Source of the DNA: Kosmotogaceae bacterium
GTDB taxonomy: Bacteria > Thermotogota > Thermotogae > Petrotogales > Kosmotogaceae
Reading direction: 5' to 3'
Length of the DNA: 64,000 nucleotides
Assembly (NCBI GenBank): GCA_016933635.1
Contig: JAFGAP010000197.1
Coordinates: 38,492-102,491 of the forward strand
The notes below the pieces were generated by a model, which had not been told where the DNA came from, did no database searches, and worked only from the letters and a program-made list of their open reading frames with translations. Every line of letters begins with the position of its first letter. Positions within the stretch are counted from its first letter, which is position 1. The position numbers were made by a program, and so were the translations under genes. Below, one piece after another: positions 13,553 through 24,106 of the stretch.

Positions 13553-14995
13553 GTGAGTCGTGAGATTTTTAAAAAACCTCGTTTCAATGCTGCAGTTTTC
13601 ACTCTGTTCTACCTGGCTCTCTTTTTTATGGTATTCTCAGTTTCGCTGCGAACGGCAGTGATTCTTTTCGCAACGTTCACGGTTGTTATGATATTGGAAC
13701 CGTGGGCAAGATTTGCAGAAAGAAGCTTTCGCATCAAGAGGTCGATCTCTCTTGGCATAGGGCTAGCGGTTATTTTTTCGGGTCTCACGCTGCTGATCGT
13801 GTTCCTCACTACCCCCGTTGCAAAAGAAGCTTCCAAGTTCTATAACATAGTAAGAGACTTCTTTCCCTCCGTTGAAGAGACCAAAATAACTTCTTTCGAA
13901 GTGAATGCAAACATAGATATATTTCTTTCCGAAGAGGAGTTTCTTTCAAAACTCTCTCCAGAAGAGGTCGAATCCTTGGATCTGCTGTCCAAAGATCTCA
14001 AACATTACTACTCAGAGATCATGAACCCGATCACTGCAGACTCGGAAGGCCTGAATGAGGATCTTGCCTTACTCGAGGAGACCCTGAAAAACAGGAGCGA
14101 TTATGTCGTAATTATCAGCAGCAGTAAGCAGAAAAAAGCTTCATATGAAGAGATATTCAAAATCATTTCGACTTACCTTAACTCAGAAGCAGCGGAACAG
14201 CTTTCAGCAACCGTTCTGGAAAATGCAATGATTATCCAGTCACAAGAACTGTGGCGCGACGTAGTTGATTACTTCATGCCGAAAAATGTCGACCCATCAA
14301 GACAAAGAGCCACCTACGAAAGTGTGAGAAACTTCCTAATTCAAGTGCAGAACAGCTTTATGGAATTTCTGCCTGATATACTTGAGAAGATTCCAAGCTT
14401 CGTAACCAGTACGGGACTTGTACTATTCTTCACTATAGTTGGCGCGATTTACCTGAGTTACTACTTCCTCACTGTGAAGGATTTAATTCCAAGATTCTAC
14501 CCCAAGAAAGTGCGTGGAATAGCTTTGAACTTCCTGGCAGATACCTACAATAATCTAGAGAGATATGTAATTTCCGTCGTAGTAATCGCCTTGATCGTTG
14601 GGGTGGTTGTTGGCATCGCTGTGCATTCCATGGGTCTTAAATACAGTCTTTTGATGGGTATGTGGGCCGCCTTCACAAATCTAATACCCATTGTTGGGGT
14701 CCCTCTTGAGTTCGTTCCTCTTTTCTTACTCGCTGTGTCTACTCAGGATCTGGTTCTTGTAATCGTCCTTATGATAATACTAGTTATTGTGCACGCTTCT
14801 GCGTTTATACTCTTCCTGGTATTCATGAAGGGATACAACAGGATAAACCCTGTAATAATTATCTTGATGATTGTTATCGCCGGACAGCTCTGGGGGCTTT
14901 TTGGGGCAATTATTGCCGTGCCTTTTGCAATAATCCTTAAGATGATGTGGATTCATTTCTTTTCTCCTATGCTCGAGGATGAGGATCTAGAGTAG
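13553..14995 (+). CDS. AI-2E/PerM family transporter-like membrane protein (GTG start)
   Basis: Multiple TM segments with C-terminal AI-2E-type block 'LMGMWAAFTNLIPIVGVPLEFVPLFLLA...GQLWGLFGAIIAVPFAIILK'. Confidence 0.8.
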   Translation: MSREIFKKPRFNAAVFTLFYLALFFMVFSVSLRTAVILFATFTVVMILEPWARFAERSFRIKRSISLGIGLAVIFSGLTLLIVFLTTPVAKEASKFYNIVRDFFPSVEETKITSFEVNANIDIFLSEEEFLSKLSPEEVESLDLLSKDLKHYYSEIMNPITADSEGLNEDLALLEETLKNRSDYVVIISSSKQKKASYEEIFKIISTYLNSEAAEQLSATVLENAMIIQSQELWRDVVDYFMPKNVDPSRQRATYESVRNFLIQVQNSFMEFLPDILEKIPSFVTSTGLVLFFTIVGAIYLSYYFLTVKDLIPRFYPKKVRGIALNFLADTYNNLERYVISVVVIALIVGVVVGIAVHSMGLKYSLLMGMWAAFTNLIPIVGVPLEFVPLFLLAVSTQDLVLVIVLMIILVIVHASAFILFLVFMKGYNRINPVIIILMIVIAGQLWGLFGAIIAVPFAIILKMMWIHFFSPMLEDEDLE

Positions 14996-16099
14996 CTCGT
15001 TTTTCAGCTTTTCGAGTTCGGAAATCGATCTGATGGCTTTACTAGCAATATGAACCTTCACTGAGTACAACATCGAGGGCTCATAAAGGTCATCTTCTGC
15101 TAATCTGTTCTTTGCCTTTTCAACTGAACTTGGGTTTCCGTCTTCTAACATAATGCAAGCACCTCTGCTAGTAAAGACTATTAAGTCTCTTTCTCTAAAT
15201 ATCCCGGCGATTTCGCTCTGAATCACATTAGTGGCTTCGACGCTTTTCTCAGAGCCACCCGATACAGAAACAATCAACAAGTATACTTCTTCATTATCAG
15301 CTATCATTTTCTCAATGCGCTTGAAGAAGGGGCCGGGCTCTAAGACTTTTGCACCAACATCTAGATTACTTCCCGAGTAGTCAGGTTTCTCATTTCTTGG
15401 AGCACTCGTTTCTAGATCGTATGACATCTTTTTGACTGACTCAATCTCGCTTTCTATACTCTGTGTATCACTAATAATGTCTCTCATCTTTCTTGCGGCA
15501 TGATTCGAGGGCTTGAGTAGAATTAGTCGTTCATTGTACGTCATGGCTTCAGAAAACCTATTGAGTGTGATGAGGAGTTTTCTCAGTTCAGTAATAGCAC
15601 TAATCTCAAGATAGAGATAGTGCCTCTGAAATTGCTTAACCCATGAAGAAAATCCAAAATCGCTCATGAAATCTCCCTTATACAATTCCACTGCTTCTTT
15701 CAACTTTTCCACCTGAGACTCCGGAGAAAGCTTTTTATGGGCCTCTTCTAGAAGAACTTCGAATTCTATGAAATCAGCAACTGCTCCTTCGGGAATGTTA
15801 ACCCATGTCATGGAACGCGCATTTGTGACGATGCTGCTAGAGGATTCTAGTTTTGTACACTCTATCAATGCCTTTCTGAGAAGATAAATCGTGGAGTTCA
15901 GATTCTGCTTCGCCTTTTCGTAGTTCATCCCCGGCCAAAAGAGCTCGAATATTTTCTCATTGGGAATCTTAGTCGTGTGATTAGCCAGAAGAAATGCGAA
16001 AAACTCACATGCTTTCTGTGAGCCACAAAAGGATCTGCAACAAGCGACCCCATCCAGCAGTAACCGAAATCCTCCGAACGACAAAATCTCTAATCTCAC
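14987..16099 (-). CDS. SARP/BTAD-type transcriptional regulator
   Basis: N-terminal winged-helix 'LEILSFGGFRLLLDG...KIFELFWPGMNYEKAKQNLNSTIYLLRKAL' plus bacterial transcriptional activation (TPR-like) domain 'EAVELYKGDFMSDF'. Confidence 0.75.
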   Translation of the reverse strand: MRLEILSFGGFRLLLDGVACCRSFCGSQKACEFFAFLLANHTTKIPNEKIFELFWPGMNYEKAKQNLNSTIYLLRKALIECTKLESSSSIVTNARSMTWVNIPEGAVADFIEFEVLLEEAHKKLSPESQVEKLKEAVELYKGDFMSDFGFSSWVKQFQRHYLYLEISAITELRKLLITLNRFSEAMTYNERLILLKPSNHAARKMRDIISDTQSIESEIESVKKMSYDLETSAPRNEKPDYSGSNLDVGAKVLEPGPFFKRIEKMIADNEEVYLLIVSVSGGSEKSVEATNVIQSEIAGIFRERDLIVFTSRGACIMLEDGNPSSVEKAKNRLAEDDLYEPSMLYSVKVHIASKAIRSISELEKLKNELL

Positions 16100-16498
16100 T
16101 GATCGCCTCCCAAGAACACTTTTGTTAAGGGAAAAATTGGTAGAAAATGTTTCATCATTTTCTTATTGTATATAGATTTGGAAAACAATTAATTATATCA
16201 AATCCCAACATGAAGACCAATTCCAGGAGAGTGTTATAGCTGCTCAAACGTACAAGTCACATAGGTCGTTCGACCAATGTTGCAAATAGCTCGGTTCAGA
16301 ACTATCATCAGATATCACAAGACTTTGCTTGTTCTTTCACTAATCGTTCATTATTATCATTGTTTTTCTATAGTCCTTATAGAGCGATAGTCATCATGTC
16401 CAAGCATTAATTAGTGCTAGAATTCTTCTGCAAGAGTTACTAATCTCTTAATCATATCCAAAATTTTCGATTCTGCGGTTCTGAGCAATGGAGAGTGC

Positions 16499-17539
16499 AT
16501 GATGAAAAAAAAGGCGTGTATCTTCGCTCTGTTAGTAATCAGTACTTTTATTTTCAGCAGCTTCATCCCTCTATACAATTTCAATAAAGAAACTGGCATT
16601 TGGGAAAAGGGGTACTATTCATTGTCACCCGTCGCTGAAATCGACGCTTTCCGTAGGTTCGAAAGAATTGAAGACTCTGAAGAAGGTGAAGTCGCTTTCT
16701 CAACTGCTCAAAGTGTTTTTCCAGAAGAAGCTGAGGTTTTCAATATTGTACTTGCACAGAATAGTATCGCTGGAACACTTGTTGTTTGGAACGACAAAGA
16801 GTTTCTTTATGTCGAATTCAACTTGAATCCGGACCTTTTTATGGAAGAGAGCAATGTCAATTGTACAGTGATGCCTCCGGACAAAAACCCTGTTCCCGGA
16901 CAATTCGATTACAAGACGGTTCATAACCCTCAGACTGGCCACTACCTCTACGAGATTCCTCTAATCAGTTTGAATCCGCCGGAGCACGCTTGGGAAACCG
17001 GAACAGAGTTATACATACTTGCGCATGCAGTTGTTAACGGAACGTTCAATGGTAATAGCTTGTTCAAAGAAACTGCTTGGTGCGGAGACATTGAATGGGA
17101 CGGCGGGGGAAAATGGTTCTGGTACCTGAAATACGAGATCGAAGAGCCTCCTTCGTACATCTGTGTTGATCTTTCAGGTACGTTATCCAGCTGGTTCGTG
17201 AGGAAACCGGGCGACTACTTCGCCAATCCAATTACTGGAAGTATTAAAGCGAGTCATGATTTTGCGATAACCTTTTCGGGCTTCAACAACCTCGTCGAAG
17301 AACTCACTGGAGAGACCATGGAAATCTTCTACAGCTTTTCTGAAAACAGTCCTTCTATAGATCAATGGATCGGTGCACTAGACCTCAACCTGTTCAACAT
17401 AGATCTGCCTGCAACCGAAGGGATGGTATTTAATATCTGGCAGAGGATCATAAACGACAACCAGAGTACTGGAGTTTACTCAAACGGGGGGGTGATAACT
17501 TTCACGCTGAAAAATGTGCAGATAGAGATAGTCGAATGA
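16499..17539 (+). CDS. Secreted protein, N-terminal unique domain plus 'WFVRKPGDY' domain (paralog A)
   Basis: Signal peptide MMKKKACIFALLVISTFIFSS; C-terminal block SSWFVRKPGDYFANPITGSIKASHDFAITFSGFNNL related to the next two ORFs. Confidence 0.8.
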   Translation: MMKKKACIFALLVISTFIFSSFIPLYNFNKETGIWEKGYYSLSPVAEIDAFRRFERIEDSEEGEVAFSTAQSVFPEEAEVFNIVLAQNSIAGTLVVWNDKEFLYVEFNLNPDLFMEESNVNCTVMPPDKNPVPGQFDYKTVHNPQTGHYLYEIPLISLNPPEHAWETGTELYILAHAVVNGTFNGNSLFKETAWCGDIEWDGGGKWFWYLKYEIEEPPSYICVDLSGTLSSWFVRKPGDYFANPITGSIKASHDFAITFSGFNNLVEELTGETMEIFYSFSENSPSIDQWIGALDLNLFNIDLPATEGMVFNIWQRIINDNQSTGVYSNGGVITFTLKNVQIEIVE

Positions 17540-17589
17540 GCACGGAACTCTTTAGTGCAAATACAGGAAATGAGAAAGGGGGCAAGTAT

Positions 17590-18270
17590 ATGAAAAGGAC
17601 AATGATTCTGCTGCTCTTCCTGCTGGTAACCCTTGTGGTCTCCTTCGCTCAGTCTGAAGTTGATGTCTGGCAATTCAATACAGAGACCGGTGAATGGGAT
17701 ATGAATGCCGGAAACGCGAGAGCATTGACCAGCATGCCGACACAGGGCAGCTGCAACAAGGTTAATTGGGAGATACTCATTACCACCGAAGCACAAGTCG
17801 CCCAGTGGTGCAAGTGGGAGATCAACGGCACGAAATGGACTTGGTTCGTGAGAAAGCCAGGTGACTACTACACTAACTCTGTGTACTTCTTCCTCCAAAG
17901 CAACGGAGATGTAGTGCTCAGCGCGACAGGATTCTCCGACCTGGAGTACTATCTTCCCGACCAGGGAGTCAACAGGTTTATCGAAACCTACTGGTTCGCC
18001 ACGCTTGATCCAGGGGCAGTTCCGGGAATCGACGACTGGACGAGAGCCGAAGAAGTGAACGGCTCTATACTGGTCGAAGATAGTCGCGAGTTGCACGAAG
18101 GCTTGAAAGCCTATCTCTGGAACAGAATAAAGGTAGTTGAGTGCAACTCGGCCTGCATTTACCGAGACTCTGGAACGATAACCATTACCCTCAAGAACCA
18201 GAAACCGTGGATTACAGATGACGGTGAGTATGTGGAGCCTCTCACCGAATTCGTAACCACATTGAGATGA
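17590..18270 (+). CDS. Secreted tryptophan-rich protein, 'GTKWTWFVRKPGDY' domain (paralog B)
   Basis: Signal peptide MKRTMILLLFLLVTLVVSFAQ; start after GAAAGGGGGC; homologous to 18284-18961. Confidence 0.82.
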   Translation: MKRTMILLLFLLVTLVVSFAQSEVDVWQFNTETGEWDMNAGNARALTSMPTQGSCNKVNWEILITTEAQVAQWCKWEINGTKWTWFVRKPGDYYTNSVYFFLQSNGDVVLSATGFSDLEYYLPDQGVNRFIETYWFATLDPGAVPGIDDWTRAEEVNGSILVEDSRELHEGLKAYLWNRIKVVECNSACIYRDSGTITITLKNQKPWITDDGEYVEPLTEFVTTLR

Positions 18271-18283
18271 AGGGGGTGAAGAC

Positions 18284-18961
18284 ATGAAAAAATTCACTCT
18301 AATCGTTTTTTTCGTAATAGTTGGATGCATGTTACTTGCGGTGGCAGATGATCCCATTGAAAAGGACGTCTTTGCCTACGAGGGCGATCCCGTAAATGCC
18401 AGAGCTTTCTATTCGACACCCGCCGGTGGCTCTTGCAACAAGACTGTTTGGGCCTTCGACATAGAAGTTGAGGCTCAGATCGCCCAGTGGATATCATGGT
18501 CGATCGGCGGTACCAAGTGGACATGGTTCGTAAGAAAGCCGGGCGAGTATTTCGCAGACTGCATCGAATTCTCGGTAAAGAGCAACAGCGATGTGGGATT
18601 CACCTTCAGCGGGTTCCATGATCTAGAGTACACGCTCGGTGCGACGGCGAGCGTAAATCCAGTAATCCCAGTTTGGTATAATTTTGGTAGCATACTCACC
18701 GACGTACTGCCGCCAAACAATCCAAATCCCTGGTTTCCTGCTGAAGAACTGAATAATGTTAAGACCTATATCGAAGACAGCGAGATGCTTCACAATGGCT
18801 GGGTAACCAAACTCTGGACAAGGATAAAAGTCGTCGAGTGCAATTCGGCCTCGACCTATCGCGCCACAGGAAAAGTCACGATCACTCTGCTCAACCAGAA
18901 ACCATGGATAATTCCGGAAACGGGAGAGTACGTTCCCGACCTAGTTGCGCACGTGAAGTAA
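18284..18961 (+). CDS. Secreted tryptophan-rich protein, 'GTKWTWFVRKPGEY' domain (paralog C)
   Basis: Signal peptide MKKFTLIVFFVIVGCMLLAVA; shares GGSCNK, WTWFVRKPG, IKVVECNSA and NQKPWI blocks with paralog B. Confidence 0.83.
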   Translation: MKKFTLIVFFVIVGCMLLAVADDPIEKDVFAYEGDPVNARAFYSTPAGGSCNKTVWAFDIEVEAQIAQWISWSIGGTKWTWFVRKPGEYFADCIEFSVKSNSDVGFTFSGFHDLEYTLGATASVNPVIPVWYNFGSILTDVLPPNNPNPWFPAEELNNVKTYIEDSEMLHNGWVTKLWTRIKVVECNSASTYRATGKVTITLLNQKPWIIPETGEYVPDLVAHVK

Positions 18962-18994
18962 TTCTCGAAGCGCAAATGTCTAGATGAATTTCCT

Positions 18995-19020
18995 CCCCGG
19001 GAGGAACTTACCTCCCGGGG
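18995..19020 (+). terminator. GC-rich hairpin between paralog C and the Ig-like gene (attenuator or terminator candidate)
   Basis: CCCCGGGAGG-AACTTA-CCTCCCGGGG: 10-bp perfect stem, 6-nt loop; weak T tract, so not a canonical terminator. Confidence 0.6.
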
Positions 19021-19033
19021 GTTTCAGGGGGGT

Positions 19034-20674
19034 ATGATGAAGAAAACTTCTTCCAAGTCCATATGGCTTCTTACCGTTTTTGTTTTCATGGTCATCTCGC
19101 TTTTTGCACAAACCGAAGGGCCTAAAATGCTTCTAGATCCTATTCTTGTTGAGAGAACCGTGAGACCTGGAGACATTATAAGCTACACTCTCAACATCGA
19201 AAATGAAGATGATTTCAACCCGCTTACACTAGATATCAGTGTAGCCGATATTGCCGAGAGCGACAGTGGTTCCTACGAGATTGTGGAGGCAGGTACAACC
19301 CCTTACTCGGTCAGCAGGTGGCTGAAGACGAATTTGAACAGAATCGTCATTCCACCCAAATCACTGCGAGAAGTGGAGGTCACACTGAACGTCCCGAGGG
19401 GGATTTCAGGAGGACTCTACGGGGCTGTAGTTCTTACTCCGGTCACCGGGCAGATTGACGAAGAAGGTGCGCTCGGTGTTTCGGAATTCGTATTTCAAAT
19501 GGCCAGTTTTCTCGAGGTTGTGATAGCAGGAACCGCTATTCGACAGGAAGCTTACACTGCAGGCTTTGACGTTGGGCTTTCGAAGGACTACATGTTTTTG
19601 AAAGGAGAAGTTGGCGACGATGCTCTGGTTTTTTCTTCGAGTGTGTTGAACGAAGGAAACGTCCATATCGTTACCAGTGGCACACTCCAGATCAAAACGC
19701 TCGATAACAGGACCGTCGCAAGATACCCTCTTGGGGGTGGAAGAGGCGTAATCCTGCCAGGGGCAACAGTTTCCCTGATGACGGTCATGACCAGGAAACT
19801 GCCGCCGGGTGATTACATCGCCAGATCTGTGGTCGAGTATGGACAGCGAAGACCTTTGATAAGCGAGGTGAGCTTTGCCGTCAAGGAAGAAGAGGTGAGT
19901 GTCGAGACGAACGAATATGCAGAACTCGCAAAGTTCCTCATTGAGCCATCTGAAATTGAAATCTCGATCAAACCCGGTGCCTTCCGTTCGGCAGTTGTTC
20001 AGGTCACTAATCGCGGCGAAGAGAAAATAGATATCGAAAGCAGGATCCTTCCGCTTGTTTATGACATATATGGAGAGATCTTACCGGAGGACGAAAGGGG
20101 AGAAGGTCTCGACTGGATCGAGCTTAGTCCGTCGTCTTTCTCTTTAGATGCAGGGAGAAGCAGGAGTGTTCGAATATCGGTTAGGCCTCCTTCGGATTCG
20201 GTGGGGGCTCATTACGCCGACCTGGTTTTCAGATCATCTAGCGGTGATGCATCGGTCGAGGGCGGTGTGAGTCTTATGATTCTCTCGGGAAGTGATTTTA
20301 CTAGAAAGCCTTCCCTGAATCTGGTGTCCATGCAAGAGATAGAAGGAGCGATAAACTTCGACTATATTCTTAAGAACGAGGGGAACATTCATATCTACGC
20401 AACATTTGAAGTGGCGCTCAGCAGGCTTTTCGCTCAGGAGATACTCGAGAGCGGGCAAATACTACCGGCCAGGTCGCAGGAGGTCGCAAGAATGACGATC
20501 CCCCTAGACGACGTTCCAATTCTTCCGGGAGCCGAAAGATTGCTGAGTATCATGATGCCAGCAGAATTAGAAGCAGGGGATTATGAACTGCTGTTGAGAC
20601 TCGATTTCGAAGGAGACGAACCGGTGGTCTTCAGAACCAAATTCAGCATTGGGGAAGGTGAGAATAATGAATAA
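19034..20674 (+). CDS. Secreted Ig/COG1470-like protein (DUF916-like), internally duplicated
   Basis: Signal peptide; two rounds of 'PGD/A...V.N....I.I.P.S.R.V.V.V..P....GA.YG/AD.V' beta-sandwich pattern. Confidence 0.65.
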   Translation: MMKKTSSKSIWLLTVFVFMVISLFAQTEGPKMLLDPILVERTVRPGDIISYTLNIENEDDFNPLTLDISVADIAESDSGSYEIVEAGTTPYSVSRWLKTNLNRIVIPPKSLREVEVTLNVPRGISGGLYGAVVLTPVTGQIDEEGALGVSEFVFQMASFLEVVIAGTAIRQEAYTAGFDVGLSKDYMFLKGEVGDDALVFSSSVLNEGNVHIVTSGTLQIKTLDNRTVARYPLGGGRGVILPGATVSLMTVMTRKLPPGDYIARSVVEYGQRRPLISEVSFAVKEEEVSVETNEYAELAKFLIEPSEIEISIKPGAFRSAVVQVTNRGEEKIDIESRILPLVYDIYGEILPEDERGEGLDWIELSPSSFSLDAGRSRSVRISVRPPSDSVGAHYADLVFRSSSGDASVEGGVSLMILSGSDFTRKPSLNLVSMQEIEGAINFDYILKNEGNIHIYATFEVALSRLFAQEILESGQILPARSQEVARMTIPLDDVPILPGAERLLSIMMPAELEAGDYELLLRLDFEGDEPVVFRTKFSIGEGENNE

Positions 20675-21842
20675 AAAGATTCTGGTATCGATTATGACAG
20701 TCTTTGTACTGATTTTTCCTGCGTTTGCTTTCAGTACAGAACTTGAACAGCCATTAGTATCTAACTACTTCTACGATACTTATATTCTAGACGCGTTGAG
20801 CGATATTTCGGCCCAGACTGGTGTGACAATAATAGCCGATAGCACAGTGGCAGGTTTTGTAACAATTGAACTCACCGATGTGCCTCTTGAGAAGGCTCTG
20901 CAGCTTGTTCTTATGACAGGGGGATACTCATATGTGAAGATCGATGACTTCTACTTCGTGGGAGCGCCCGATCCCAAGAGCCCTTCATTCTATCTCATAG
21001 CCAAAACCGAGAGTTTCAAGATACAGTATCTTAGCGTCGCTTCTATCAAGGAACTGCTACCAGCAATATACGAGCAATACGTCAAGATAAACGGCACAAG
21101 CAATATGCTCACGATAACGGCTCCGGAAAATATCATCGAGAGATTCCGGGAGGACCTGAAGAAGATCGATATTCCATCGAAGAGCGTGAAGATTCAGATC
21201 GTGGTTACGGAAGTCTCCGAAGGCGTGATGAAGGAGCTCGGGCTGGAGAGTATCGAATACGAATTCGATGCCAGCGAATCCTTCAACGAAAACTGGATTA
21301 CGGTTCTAAAACTTGCTCTTGGCACTTTCGATCTTGAGACTGACTTCTTCGGTGCGCTACTGGCAAAGATCAAACTGCTTGAGGACGACCACAAAGCCGA
21401 GATAACTGCCGATCCTTGGATCGTTGTGAATGATAGGATGCCAGCAAGTCTTTATATTGGCGAGAGGCAGGTTGTGGTTCTTGAGGCTGCCGGAGCAACA
21501 TCGAGAATAGAGTCGATAGATGCCGGAATCTCGCTAGAAGTTACTCCAAAGATCCTGAACAGCGAAGAGATTGAGCTGACAATATCTCCGAAGATAAGCA
21601 GTTTCAGCGGAGATCGCTTGAACGGCCTCCTTGTAAGAAGAAACGAGCTTTCAACAACCATATACGCCAGAGACGGGCAGACAATAATGATCTCAGGCAT
21701 AACCTTTGAGAAGAAGTCAGAGGGCTTTCGCGGCCTACCTTTCATATCGAAGATTCCTCTTCTCAGATATCTGTTCGGTGTTGGCACTGAGGATGATAAC
21801 AAAAGAGAGTTGATGATATTCGTAACTCCAGAGATACTATAG
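20667..21842 (+). CDS. Secretin-family protein (STN + N-domain + secretin domain)
   Basis: 'LDALSDISAQTGVTIIADSTVAGFVTIELTDVPLEKALQLVL'; C-terminal 'ITADPWIVVNDRMPASLYIGERQ...DAGISLEVTPKI...TTIYARDGQTIMISGI...GLPFISKIPLLRYLFG...RELMIFVTPEIL'. Confidence 0.88.
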   Translation: MNKKILVSIMTVFVLIFPAFAFSTELEQPLVSNYFYDTYILDALSDISAQTGVTIIADSTVAGFVTIELTDVPLEKALQLVLMTGGYSYVKIDDFYFVGAPDPKSPSFYLIAKTESFKIQYLSVASIKELLPAIYEQYVKINGTSNMLTITAPENIIERFREDLKKIDIPSKSVKIQIVVTEVSEGVMKELGLESIEYEFDASESFNENWITVLKLALGTFDLETDFFGALLAKIKLLEDDHKAEITADPWIVVNDRMPASLYIGERQVVVLEAAGATSRIESIDAGISLEVTPKILNSEEIELTISPKISSFSGDRLNGLLVRRNELSTTIYARDGQTIMISGITFEKKSEGFRGLPFISKIPLLRYLFGVGTEDDNKRELMIFVTPEIL

Positions 21843-21844
21843 GG

Positions 21845-23092
21845 TTGCTTATGAGACTCTTGATGATTGTTGCCTTTGTGGCCTTTTGCTGCGTGCTGTG
21901 CTTCGCCGGTGCCGGCAGTACCCATGAGACTGAAGTTTCAAACATACTATACTTGATCGAAGTAGTCAACTTCAGCAGACAGGATTTCCAGAACCTGAAT
22001 CTCGATTTCTCGTCCATCAAATTCGAGAGCGACGTCAGGTCGGCTTTCGAGTTTGGTTTCAGCCCCGTAACAATGGAAGTGCTTGCCGGTACGCCGTTTG
22101 GAACGCTGTACTTTCAGACGGGAGAAGAAAACCTTCAGCAGTATGAGAGTTATAGATCTTGGCTTGCAACGGTTCCCGAGAAGCCCGTAAGGGTTATGAT
22201 AGCAAGAGAGATGATCTCCATGCTCTCAGGACTTAGGAGTGCGGATGGTATTGAGCTTTCTCTTACTCCCCTGGCAGTCTCTTCTGAGAGCATCATGAAC
22301 GCTCTCAGACTTGCAACGGTGGCTGGAACGATGTCTGTAGATTCCGTAGTGAGCCTTAAAGCCGGGGAGCCCTTTCCAGTTGCAATGATAAGGAAGAGCA
22401 AAAGAGCTGACAGCAACCTGCCCCGCCTGTTGCATGCTTCTGAAGAAAGATATGCGGTACTGTACATCTCTGCATTTGAGTCTCATGACTTTCCCGAAGA
22501 GACTCTTTTGGACTCTTCCAGCATCGACGGACTGCTGGAATCTCTCTGGAAAGTTGAAGAGAAGGAGCTAGTCTCAAACGCAAGTCTTGGGATTTCATAC
22601 TCAGAAGGTCTCTCATTAAGCTTCAACGCAAACTTATGGCTTATAGAGTCGCTCAGATTCAGGGCCGGCTACTCGAATTTGATCTCCTCACGCCTGGAGT
22701 TTGGAGTTACTTTATATCCATCGAAATGGTCTCTCGGTCTCGATGGAGAGATAAACTATCTACCCGGTTCCGGTGGCACTGTTTCTTTAGGTCTCTCTGA
22801 CGAGGAAGCTGTTCTGGAAGACCTGACAATAGGCGCCGCAATCTATCCCATCTCATTCGACTTCATAACCGCAAAGACGGTAAGCCCCTTGTTCAGGGTC
22901 TATGCGAACTACTCTCCTGGAATCTTCAACTTCTACACGAGCTATTCAAAGTCCAGTCGCTTCGACCAGCTTCAGGTATCTCTGGGCATAAGACCATTTG
23001 ACTGGCTTCTACTGTCTGGTAAGTACACAAAGGATTTCAGCAATATGGGCACAGGTGCCTTTTCGGTCATTACCACTGTTAGTTTTAGATAA
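21845..23092 (+). CDS. Predicted secreted or outer-membrane beta-barrel protein
   Basis: Signal peptide; C-terminal half rich in alternating amphipathic strands (e.g. 'LFRVYANYSPGIFNFYTSYSKSSRFDQLQVSLGIRPFDWLLLSGKYTKDF') ending in 'VSFR'. Confidence 0.6.
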   Translation: MLMRLLMIVAFVAFCCVLCFAGAGSTHETEVSNILYLIEVVNFSRQDFQNLNLDFSSIKFESDVRSAFEFGFSPVTMEVLAGTPFGTLYFQTGEENLQQYESYRSWLATVPEKPVRVMIAREMISMLSGLRSADGIELSLTPLAVSSESIMNALRLATVAGTMSVDSVVSLKAGEPFPVAMIRKSKRADSNLPRLLHASEERYAVLYISAFESHDFPEETLLDSSSIDGLLESLWKVEEKELVSNASLGISYSEGLSLSFNANLWLIESLRFRAGYSNLISSRLEFGVTLYPSKWSLGLDGEINYLPGSGGTVSLGLSDEEAVLEDLTIGAAIYPISFDFITAKTVSPLFRVYANYSPGIFNFYTSYSKSSRFDQLQVSLGIRPFDWLLLSGKYTKDFSNMGTGAFSVITTVSFR

Positions 23093-23095
23093 TCT

Positions 23096-24106
23096 TCAAA
23101 TCAGCAGACAGGCATCGCCGAACGAGAAGAATCTGTATCTCTTTAAAATGGCCTCTCTATAGGCCGAGAGAATCAAATCCCTACCGGCAAATGCAGAAAC
23201 GAGCATAAGAAGGGTAGATCTCGGTAAGTGAAAGTTAGTTATGAGAGAGTCGATCGCTTTGAATGTATATGGAGGATAGATAAAAATATCTGTATGACCA
23301 CTATCACCTACGATGGAACCGTGACGAGCAATTATACTCTCCAGGGTTCGAACGGTAGTAGTACCAACTGCTACTATTCTTCTCTTTTCGGCTCTAGCCC
23401 GCTCCAGTCTCTCTGCAACTTCCGAAGAAACGGAGAAGAATTCGAAGTGCATCTTGTGGCCATCAATTGTTTCAGATTTTACTGGTCTAAATGTGCCAAT
23501 TCCAACATGAAGAGTAATGAATTCTACATCTACATCTTTCTTCCTGAGTCTTTCGAAAAGAGTATCGGTGAAGTGTAGTCCCGCAGTGGGGGCAGCTACG
23601 GAGCCCTCCGGCCGAGAATAAACCGTCTGGTACGCTTCTGGATTGTCGGGGTAGTACTTGACGTAGGGTGGAATTGCCAAAAGGCCTACTTTTTTTACGT
23701 CTTCATCTGTCACGCTTCCAAAATCGAGTATCCTGCTTGAATCATCACAGTGTTCTATTACTTTGCAGGAGATTCCATTGAATAAGAGCAGGTTTCCGGG
23801 TTTGATTTTTGACCCGGGCCTGACTATGGCTTTCCAGAGACCCCCGCCAAGCTTTTCCGTTAGGACTGCCTCTACTTTGGCCCCTGTTTCCTTTTTGCCG
23901 AGGAGTCTTGCCGGAATAACCCGACTATTGTTTAGGACAAGAACATCTCCCGGATTAAGAAAATCTTCAATTTCTGAGAATACTCTGTGTTCGAACGAGT
24001 ATGTCTGCCTATTGATAACTAATAGCCGAGAGCTATCTCTTGGAACTGCTGGCTTTTGAGCTATCAGTTCTTCCGGAAGCTCAAAATCATAGTCTGAGAC
24101 TTTCAT
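23096..24106 (-). CDS. queA: S-adenosylmethionine:tRNA ribosyltransferase-isomerase QueA
   Basis: 'MKVSDYDFELPEELIAQKPAVPRDSSRLLV', 'GSVAAPTAGLHFT', 'LHVGIGTFRPV'. Confidence 0.97.
   Translation of the reverse strand: MKVSDYDFELPEELIAQKPAVPRDSSRLLVINRQTYSFEHRVFSEIEDFLNPGDVLVLNNSRVIPARLLGKKETGAKVEAVLTEKLGGGLWKAIVRPGSKIKPGNLLLFNGISCKVIEHCDDSSRILDFGSVTDEDVKKVGLLAIPPYVKYYPDNPEAYQTVYSRPEGSVAAPTAGLHFTDTLFERLRKKDVDVEFITLHVGIGTFRPVKSETIDGHKMHFEFFSVSSEVAERLERARAEKRRIVAVGTTTVRTLESIIARHGSIVGDSGHTDIFIYPPYTFKAIDSLITNFHLPRSTLLMLVSAFAGRDLILSAYREAILKRYRFFSFGDACLLI

Follow-up and report, generated by a model that had tools for sequence, protein, structure and literature searches.

What does a secretin do where neither a secretion ATPase nor a platform protein is encoded beside it? 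The question is raised by a 64,000-nucleotide stretch of DNA (hereafter the window) from contig C184 of a Thermotogota metagenome-assembled genome (MAG; 1.98 Mb, 80% complete) of a Kosmotogaceae bacterium, in which a short secretin gene lies among genes for three secreted W proteins, so called here for the block W-F-V-R-K-P-G-x-Y that they share, an immunoglobulin (Ig)-like protein, a barrel protein and a transcriptional regulator. We propose, with a probability of roughly 0.55, that these seven genes form a self-contained, horizontally mobile export and assembly cassette for diderm bacteria that is dedicated to the W proteins. Genomes, loci, contigs and families carry the labels G, L, C and f used within our analysis, the window's own genome being G000.

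The closest relative, G026 (locus L093), matches the window at 92-93% nucleotide identity over positions 33254-23105 and 14985-5237 and lacks exactly positions 14986-23104, in whose place it has about 102 bp. The transporter gene and queA, which flank the cassette in the window, are direct neighbours in three genus-mates (G026, G029 and G032), and W proteins were found in none of all nine genus-mates searched. The exact absence of the block and the adjacency of its flanks in these genomes point to acquisition of the cassette in one piece: all seven genes, the regulator among them, most likely arrived together. The G+C content of the cassette is 46.0%, slightly above the 43.6-43.8% of the flanks. 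A contaminant contig is ruled out, because the flanks match the genus-mate at the identity given above and the QueA protein is 94% identical.

Scanning 85,488 genomes with the W alignment alone yielded 23 loci, in Thermotogota, Bacillota-labelled MAGs (including Halanaerobiales), Zixibacteria and WOR-3; the scan also found one unnamed bacterium and one Nealsonbacteria contig. Every locus on a sufficiently long contig has an Ig gene and a secretin gene linked to the W genes. The long W gene is nearly always followed by the short W gene, the Ig gene and the secretin gene, G003 being an exception with divergent W genes, and the linked secretins mostly have 385-430 amino acids. In Bacillota, a search through the class of G104 recovered that genome alone. 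Since this linkage recurs in several phyla and the block is absent so exactly from G026, the observation lies far beyond chance. The co-occurrence on which a preliminary description of the locus had staked its reading thus extends across genomes and phyla. Omp85, indicating two membranes, is present in 13 of the 14 host genomes searched outside Thermotogota; the exception is the small Candidatus Nealsonbacteria bin, whose 2.7-kb contig with W, Ig and secretin genes (L103) is probably misbinned. The cassette is restricted to diderms and probably mobile between lineages. A role in the Thermotogota toga, also suggested at the outset, is not supported: the same cassette occurs in diderm Bacillota, Zixibacteria and WOR-3 and is missing from the nine genus-mates, and on its distribution beyond Thermotogota we reject a toga-specific function. 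The main text of a toga proteomics paper mentions neither a secretin nor a TM11xx gene (PMC3387000).

Two individual loci depart from the usual picture. In the Bacillota MAG UBA5435 (L100:9954-14271) the cassette adjoins type IV pilin-like and leader-peptidase-like genes, and another secretin lies about 10 kb off on the same contig; in one Zixibacteria genome (L107:10284-12596) the cassette secretin frame has 770 amino acids, with a long N-terminal extension.

Around this core, two types of locus can be told apart. Type A, defined by long and short W, Ig, secretin and barrel genes and often a BTAD gene nearby, occurs in full in Thermotogota families f4, f8 and f10, and the long W form accompanies the short one in nearly all its loci. 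The more distant type B keeps the Ig, secretin and third genes, sometimes with a BTAD gene, and its cargo consists of other small secreted proteins of 140-290 amino acids, usually two to four of them (L050-L058, L152, L153 and L156-L161, of which L056 is a second copy in G092); both types are present in the Bacillota genome G105 (L101 and L152). BTAD homologues neighbour the locus both in further families of Thermotogota and at L101, L106, L110, L111, L113 and L118. Matches to the Ig protein were found in 50 of 104 Thermotogota genomes, and a secretin lies within 4 kb of at least 43 of the 56 Thermotogota Ig matches, among the matches listed; the other 13 are at contig ends or in genomes with weak secretin matches, and direct synteny shows the secretin beside the Ig gene in L051, L055 and L058. 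These Ig-adjacent Thermotogota secretins are frames of 369-421 amino acids. Because the core genes are constant and the small secreted proteins vary, the loci appear to fit a common machine with lineage-specific cargo, and the two cargo sets may be distant kin, since the cargo of family f7 weakly matches the W profile.

The cargo itself is a family of 56 proteins in which the motif glycine is invariant and the tryptophan, lysine, proline and tyrosine are nearly so, with three cysteine columns filled in 26-30 of the 56 rows. The window W proteins have no Pfam match, and a search of 20 relatives at E up to 5 gave no meaningful recurrent one, ruling out an assignment to known domains; nor did a PDB profile search return any match at E up to 10. 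An AlphaFold model of W2 (predicted local distance difference test (pLDDT) 81.5, predicted template-modelling score 0.61) has as its leading PDB matches the chaperone-usher pilins CsuE, FimA, FimG and CfaB, the CanA cannula and TasA, all of them fibre-forming proteins; on this model, the W protein weakly resembles pilus subunits.

The window Ig protein gives only sub-threshold Ig and WxL-interacting protein (WxLIP) matches in Pfam, eight of ten orthologues match WxLIP_PGBD (best 2.6e-8), and the Ig profile retrieves only EfmWxLIP1 from the PDB (9i1y, 9i25; E 0.002-0.003). By these profile comparisons it is probably a distant WxLIP relative, akin to the DUF916-type Ig proteins of the preliminary description; the window protein itself stays under the curated cut-off. 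WxLIP is reported to bind WxL proteins, the clusters comprising a small WxL, a large WxL and a WxLIP, and a DUF916 hairpin strand is predicted to insert into WxL (PMC10599100). The cassette could accordingly be a diderm relative of the Gram-positive WxL clusters, its W and Ig proteins forming a surface or envelope complex for adhesion or peptidoglycan contact, with no fibre, and its secretin only passing this complex or anchoring it in the outer membrane. The parallel layout, with short and long cargo plus an Ig partner matching small and large WxL plus WxLIP (PMC10599100), speaks for this, as do the WxLIP_PGBD and EfmWxLIP1 matches; but the 20 W proteins searched show neither a WxL-domain nor a recurrent Pfam match at E up to 5, inspection of the window Ig protein found no C-terminal transmembrane helix, the W fold matches favour fibre subunits, and a whole secretin and barrel would be costly if anchoring were all that they did. 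We regard such a complex as unlikely, if still a serious contender.

The third gene points back to the secretin. Its product has nothing above threshold in Pfam, and type A barrel proteins align through their N-terminal half with the beginning of the secretin domain (probability 92%, E 7e-7, in a profile-profile comparison); the barrel profile also retrieves cassette secretins, at up to 1.7e-8, and N0-N1 is common to the secretin and the third proteins of type B loci in f7, in f9 and in the second copy of f10 (probability 99.7%). A 562-residue Bacillota homologue (L153) is found by the secretin profile (1.7e-14) and by the barrel profile (1.7e-37) alike, and the AlphaFold model of the barrel protein has structural matches among outer-membrane barrels of 12 strands and also among PilQ, XcpQ and GspD structures. 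Given these profile matches, the link through L153 and the model matches, the best reading of the third gene is a paralogue of the secretin that either turned into a conventional outer-membrane barrel or gained one; the outer-membrane barrel first described is thereby kept for the C terminus, on the strength of the model, and refined by a secretin-derived N-terminal half. In several Bacillota its place is held by an unrelated-looking protein of about 235 amino acids with a C terminus like that of outer-membrane proteins.

The secretin itself, about as large as phage pIV, is a full-length match to PHROG 1012 (M13 pIV; residues 15-391, E 1.1e-43), falls below the cut-off of TIGR02515 (PilQ) and scores 124 bits against TIGR02517 (GspD), whose cut-off is 351. 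No T2SSE or T2SSF match was found on the window contig, and the PilB-, PilT- and PilC-like genes of the genome are on other contigs, in keeping with the orphan status given to the secretin at first. Only one secretin was found in a search of the genome, because contig C165 breaks inside the true pilQ: this contig carries pilC, pilM, pilN and pilO and ends 1964 codons into a giant pilQ. The separate pilQ start rules out the window secretin as the genome's only PilQ. This type IV pilus (T4P) pilQ start on C165 corresponds to L095:12924-18817. Giant PilQ frames recur in the window's genus, with 3914 codons in G026 (L094:7154-18898) and 3900-4575 amino acids in several genus-mates, against 1100-1600 amino acids in most other Thermotogota.

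A T2SSF/PilC gene and a secretin are present in almost all Thermotogota genomes, and 46 of the 47 Ig-bearing ones have another secretin elsewhere; where both secretin kinds occur, gene order (L094, L096, L098) shows the T4P one to be the long one. In a 79-row tree, in which long branches make the root and the deepest type B rows uncertain, a branch marked 98* has all cassette secretins on one side and, on the other, 29 PilQ of Thermotogota together with 15 further secretins of the hosts. Cassette secretins are a lineage distinct from T4P PilQ, and the outcome that the preliminary description had named as fatal, a PilQ or GspD working with a T4P or type II secretion system (T2SS) elsewhere in the genome, is contradicted by the pilQ on C165, by the additional secretins and by the tree.

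The same distinction extends to a well-known genome. G091, a single 1,860,725-bp contig that we take to be Thermotoga maritima MSB8, has secretins at 91 kb and 1.13 Mb, positions that fit T. maritima with TM0088 and TM1117. Both are listed as T. maritima pilQ genes, among competence genes (PMC5637354). TM1117 is almost certainly the cassette secretin, and from gene order its cassette neighbours would be TM1113-TM1119. The pilQ listing of TM1117 lends some weight to the idea that the cassette secretin is an accessory PilQ for a T4P or DNA-uptake motor, with the neighbouring genes as its helpers, as do the nearness of its secretin domain to PilQ by sequence and the pilin-like genes beside the cassette in L100. 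Set against this are the separate long PilQ beside PilC in Thermotogota, the separate lineage of the cassette secretins, the genus-mates that keep T4P genes without the cassette, and the lack of any T4P gene that travels with it; we disfavour this idea and hold it to be improbable. Less probable still is a channel mainly for other material (polysaccharide, metal or nutrient) with W proteins as periplasmic or surface binding factors, since, for all that the W and long-form domains have no known function and a secretin can serve as a large gated pore, the unit has no glycosyltransferase, transporter or enzyme, and cargo-like secreted proteins are the variable part of related loci.

In the export and assembly cassette that we favour, W1, W2, W3 and the Ig protein would enter the periplasm via Sec (the signal peptides of the cassette proteins were seen by eye), where the WxLIP-like Ig protein would bind and hold the W subunits, probably via strand complementation. 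The short secretin would be the dedicated channel taking them to the surface, and the secretin-derived barrel of 12 strands would act as its partner in the outer membrane. The W proteins would end as a surface fibre or complex in which the two-domain long form would likely sit at the tip or serve for binding, with the short forms as the repeating units. Because the unit has no ATPase, platform protein or pilin, export might be driven by folding and assembly, as in chaperone-usher export, or by a borrowed motor; the BTAD regulator would control the unit. A dedicated system for the W proteins, as proposed in the preliminary description, is the best reading of the linkage, and export itself is what we infer from it. 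More tentatively, the cassette may represent a previously undescribed kind of fibre or coat assembly on diderm surfaces. Here the usher's place would be taken by a minimal secretin together with a secretin-derived barrel, and W subunits of the donor-strand type would be delivered by a WxLIP-like Ig chaperone with no need for ATP; we consider this possible, if doubtful in its full form.

Several points weigh against an export and assembly cassette. The fold match of W2 is weak (Foldseek E 2e-3 at best, template-modelling score about 0.3), and beta-sandwiches yield many partial fold matches; the barrel model is of low overall confidence (pLDDT 64.6); Pfam searches of the cassette proteins detected neither an usher nor a PapD chaperone nor a WxL domain; and export, surface location and fibre formation are predictions. 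The motor could also be one borrowed from T4P, the cassette in L100 adjoining type IV pilin-like genes.

The gene coordinates first described are unchanged (Table 1): the secretin ATG overlaps the Ig stop by 8 nucleotides, the barrel gene starts after a 2-nucleotide gap, and the divergent spacing between the regulator and W1, put at about 400 bp, is 399 bp. The three W paralogues do share the motif, though as one long and two short forms and not as equals, and of the STN and secretin domains reported, the latter is clearly matched, while Secretin_N and STN are present yet below cut-off. The true start of W2 is probably an inner ATG at 17590 (MKRTMILLLFLLV...). The BTAD domain of the regulator matches PF03704 with E 1.2e-7 and 32.6 bits, against a curated cut-off of 22.1; its C-terminal third has a degenerate GGDEF-like look by eye, and the homologue at L101:13330-14607 has a C-terminal GGDEF match barely above the curated cut-off. 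A promoter and terminator pattern scan of the cassette gave no more than chance level.

Table 1. Features of the cassette and its flanks, in window positions.
Feature	Positions	Strand	Remarks
Whole cassette	14986..23104	n/a	block without counterpart in closest relative
Flank: AI-2E-type transporter gene	13553-14995		convergent with queA
BTAD/SARP-type transcriptional regulator, cassette member	14987..16099	-	PF03704 above cut-off
W1, long-form W protein, 346 amino acids, extra N-terminal domain and C-terminal W domain	16499..17539	+	signal peptide by eye
W2, short-form W protein	17536..18270	+	W-F-V-R-K-P-G motif
W3, short-form W protein, 225 amino acids	18284..18961	+	
Ig-like secreted protein, distant WxLIP/DUF916 relative	19034..20674	+	
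Short secretin, 391 amino acids: N0/STN, N1, secretin domain	20667..21842	+	PF00263 E 1.9e-35
Secretin-derived protein with C-terminal outer-membrane beta-barrel, probably 12 strands	21845..23092	+	
Flank: queA	23096-24106		convergent with AI-2E-type transporter gene

We found no paper describing the cassette among open-access full texts. According to a 2016 survey, Thermotogae stand alone among diderm clades in having none of the protein secretion system types searched for; the survey speculated that dedicated secretion systems had evolved there (PMC4793230). The cassette is a concrete, testable candidate for such Thermotogae-dedicated secretion, found in T. maritima too; if the more tentative reading above is right, no dedicated protein secretion system would have been found in Thermotogota before it, and horizontal transfer would have spread it among Thermotogota, diderm Bacillota, Zixibacteria and WOR-3. 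The cassette would also call for a revision of the pilQ listing of TM1117, show a secretin operating in a small unit that has no ATPase of its own, and connect Gram-positive WxL surface complexes with chaperone-usher-like export.

How, then, does the cassette compare with known systems? With the Gram-positive WxL clusters (WxL plus WxLIP/DUF916-DUF3324) it shares the probable distant Ig-WxLIP kinship and the short and long secreted partners in each cluster; in contrast to them, it adds a secretin and an outer-membrane barrel, has no detected WxL domain and no C-terminal transmembrane helix that we could see, and resides in diderm hosts. Chaperone-usher pili (Csu, type 1, CFA/I) combine, as the cassette appears to, an Ig-like periplasmic protein, one outer-membrane channel, the lack of an ATPase and secreted beta-sandwich subunits, one long with one or more short, and provide the leading PDB matches of the W model; the cassette differs in having a secretin in place of the usher, no PF00577 or PF00345 match and only a weak fold match. 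Its short secretin of full-length pIV type and the absence of a secretion ATPase recall filamentous phages and minimal secretins, whereas its neighbours are secreted proteins, its Ig, W2 and barrel proteins have no PHROG match, and Pfam finds no phage morphogenesis genes (pI/Zot, coat proteins) in the unit. T4P PilQ and T2SS GspD belong to the same secretin family and are the nearest sequence neighbours of the secretin domain; unlike their systems, the cassette comes without ATPase, platform, PilM/N/O or pilin, its secretin occupies a separate tree branch, and the real PilQ, far longer, is encoded elsewhere. The unit lacks tested defining features of T2SS, T4P, chaperone-usher systems, WxL clusters and filamentous phages, and has single parts in common with each of them.

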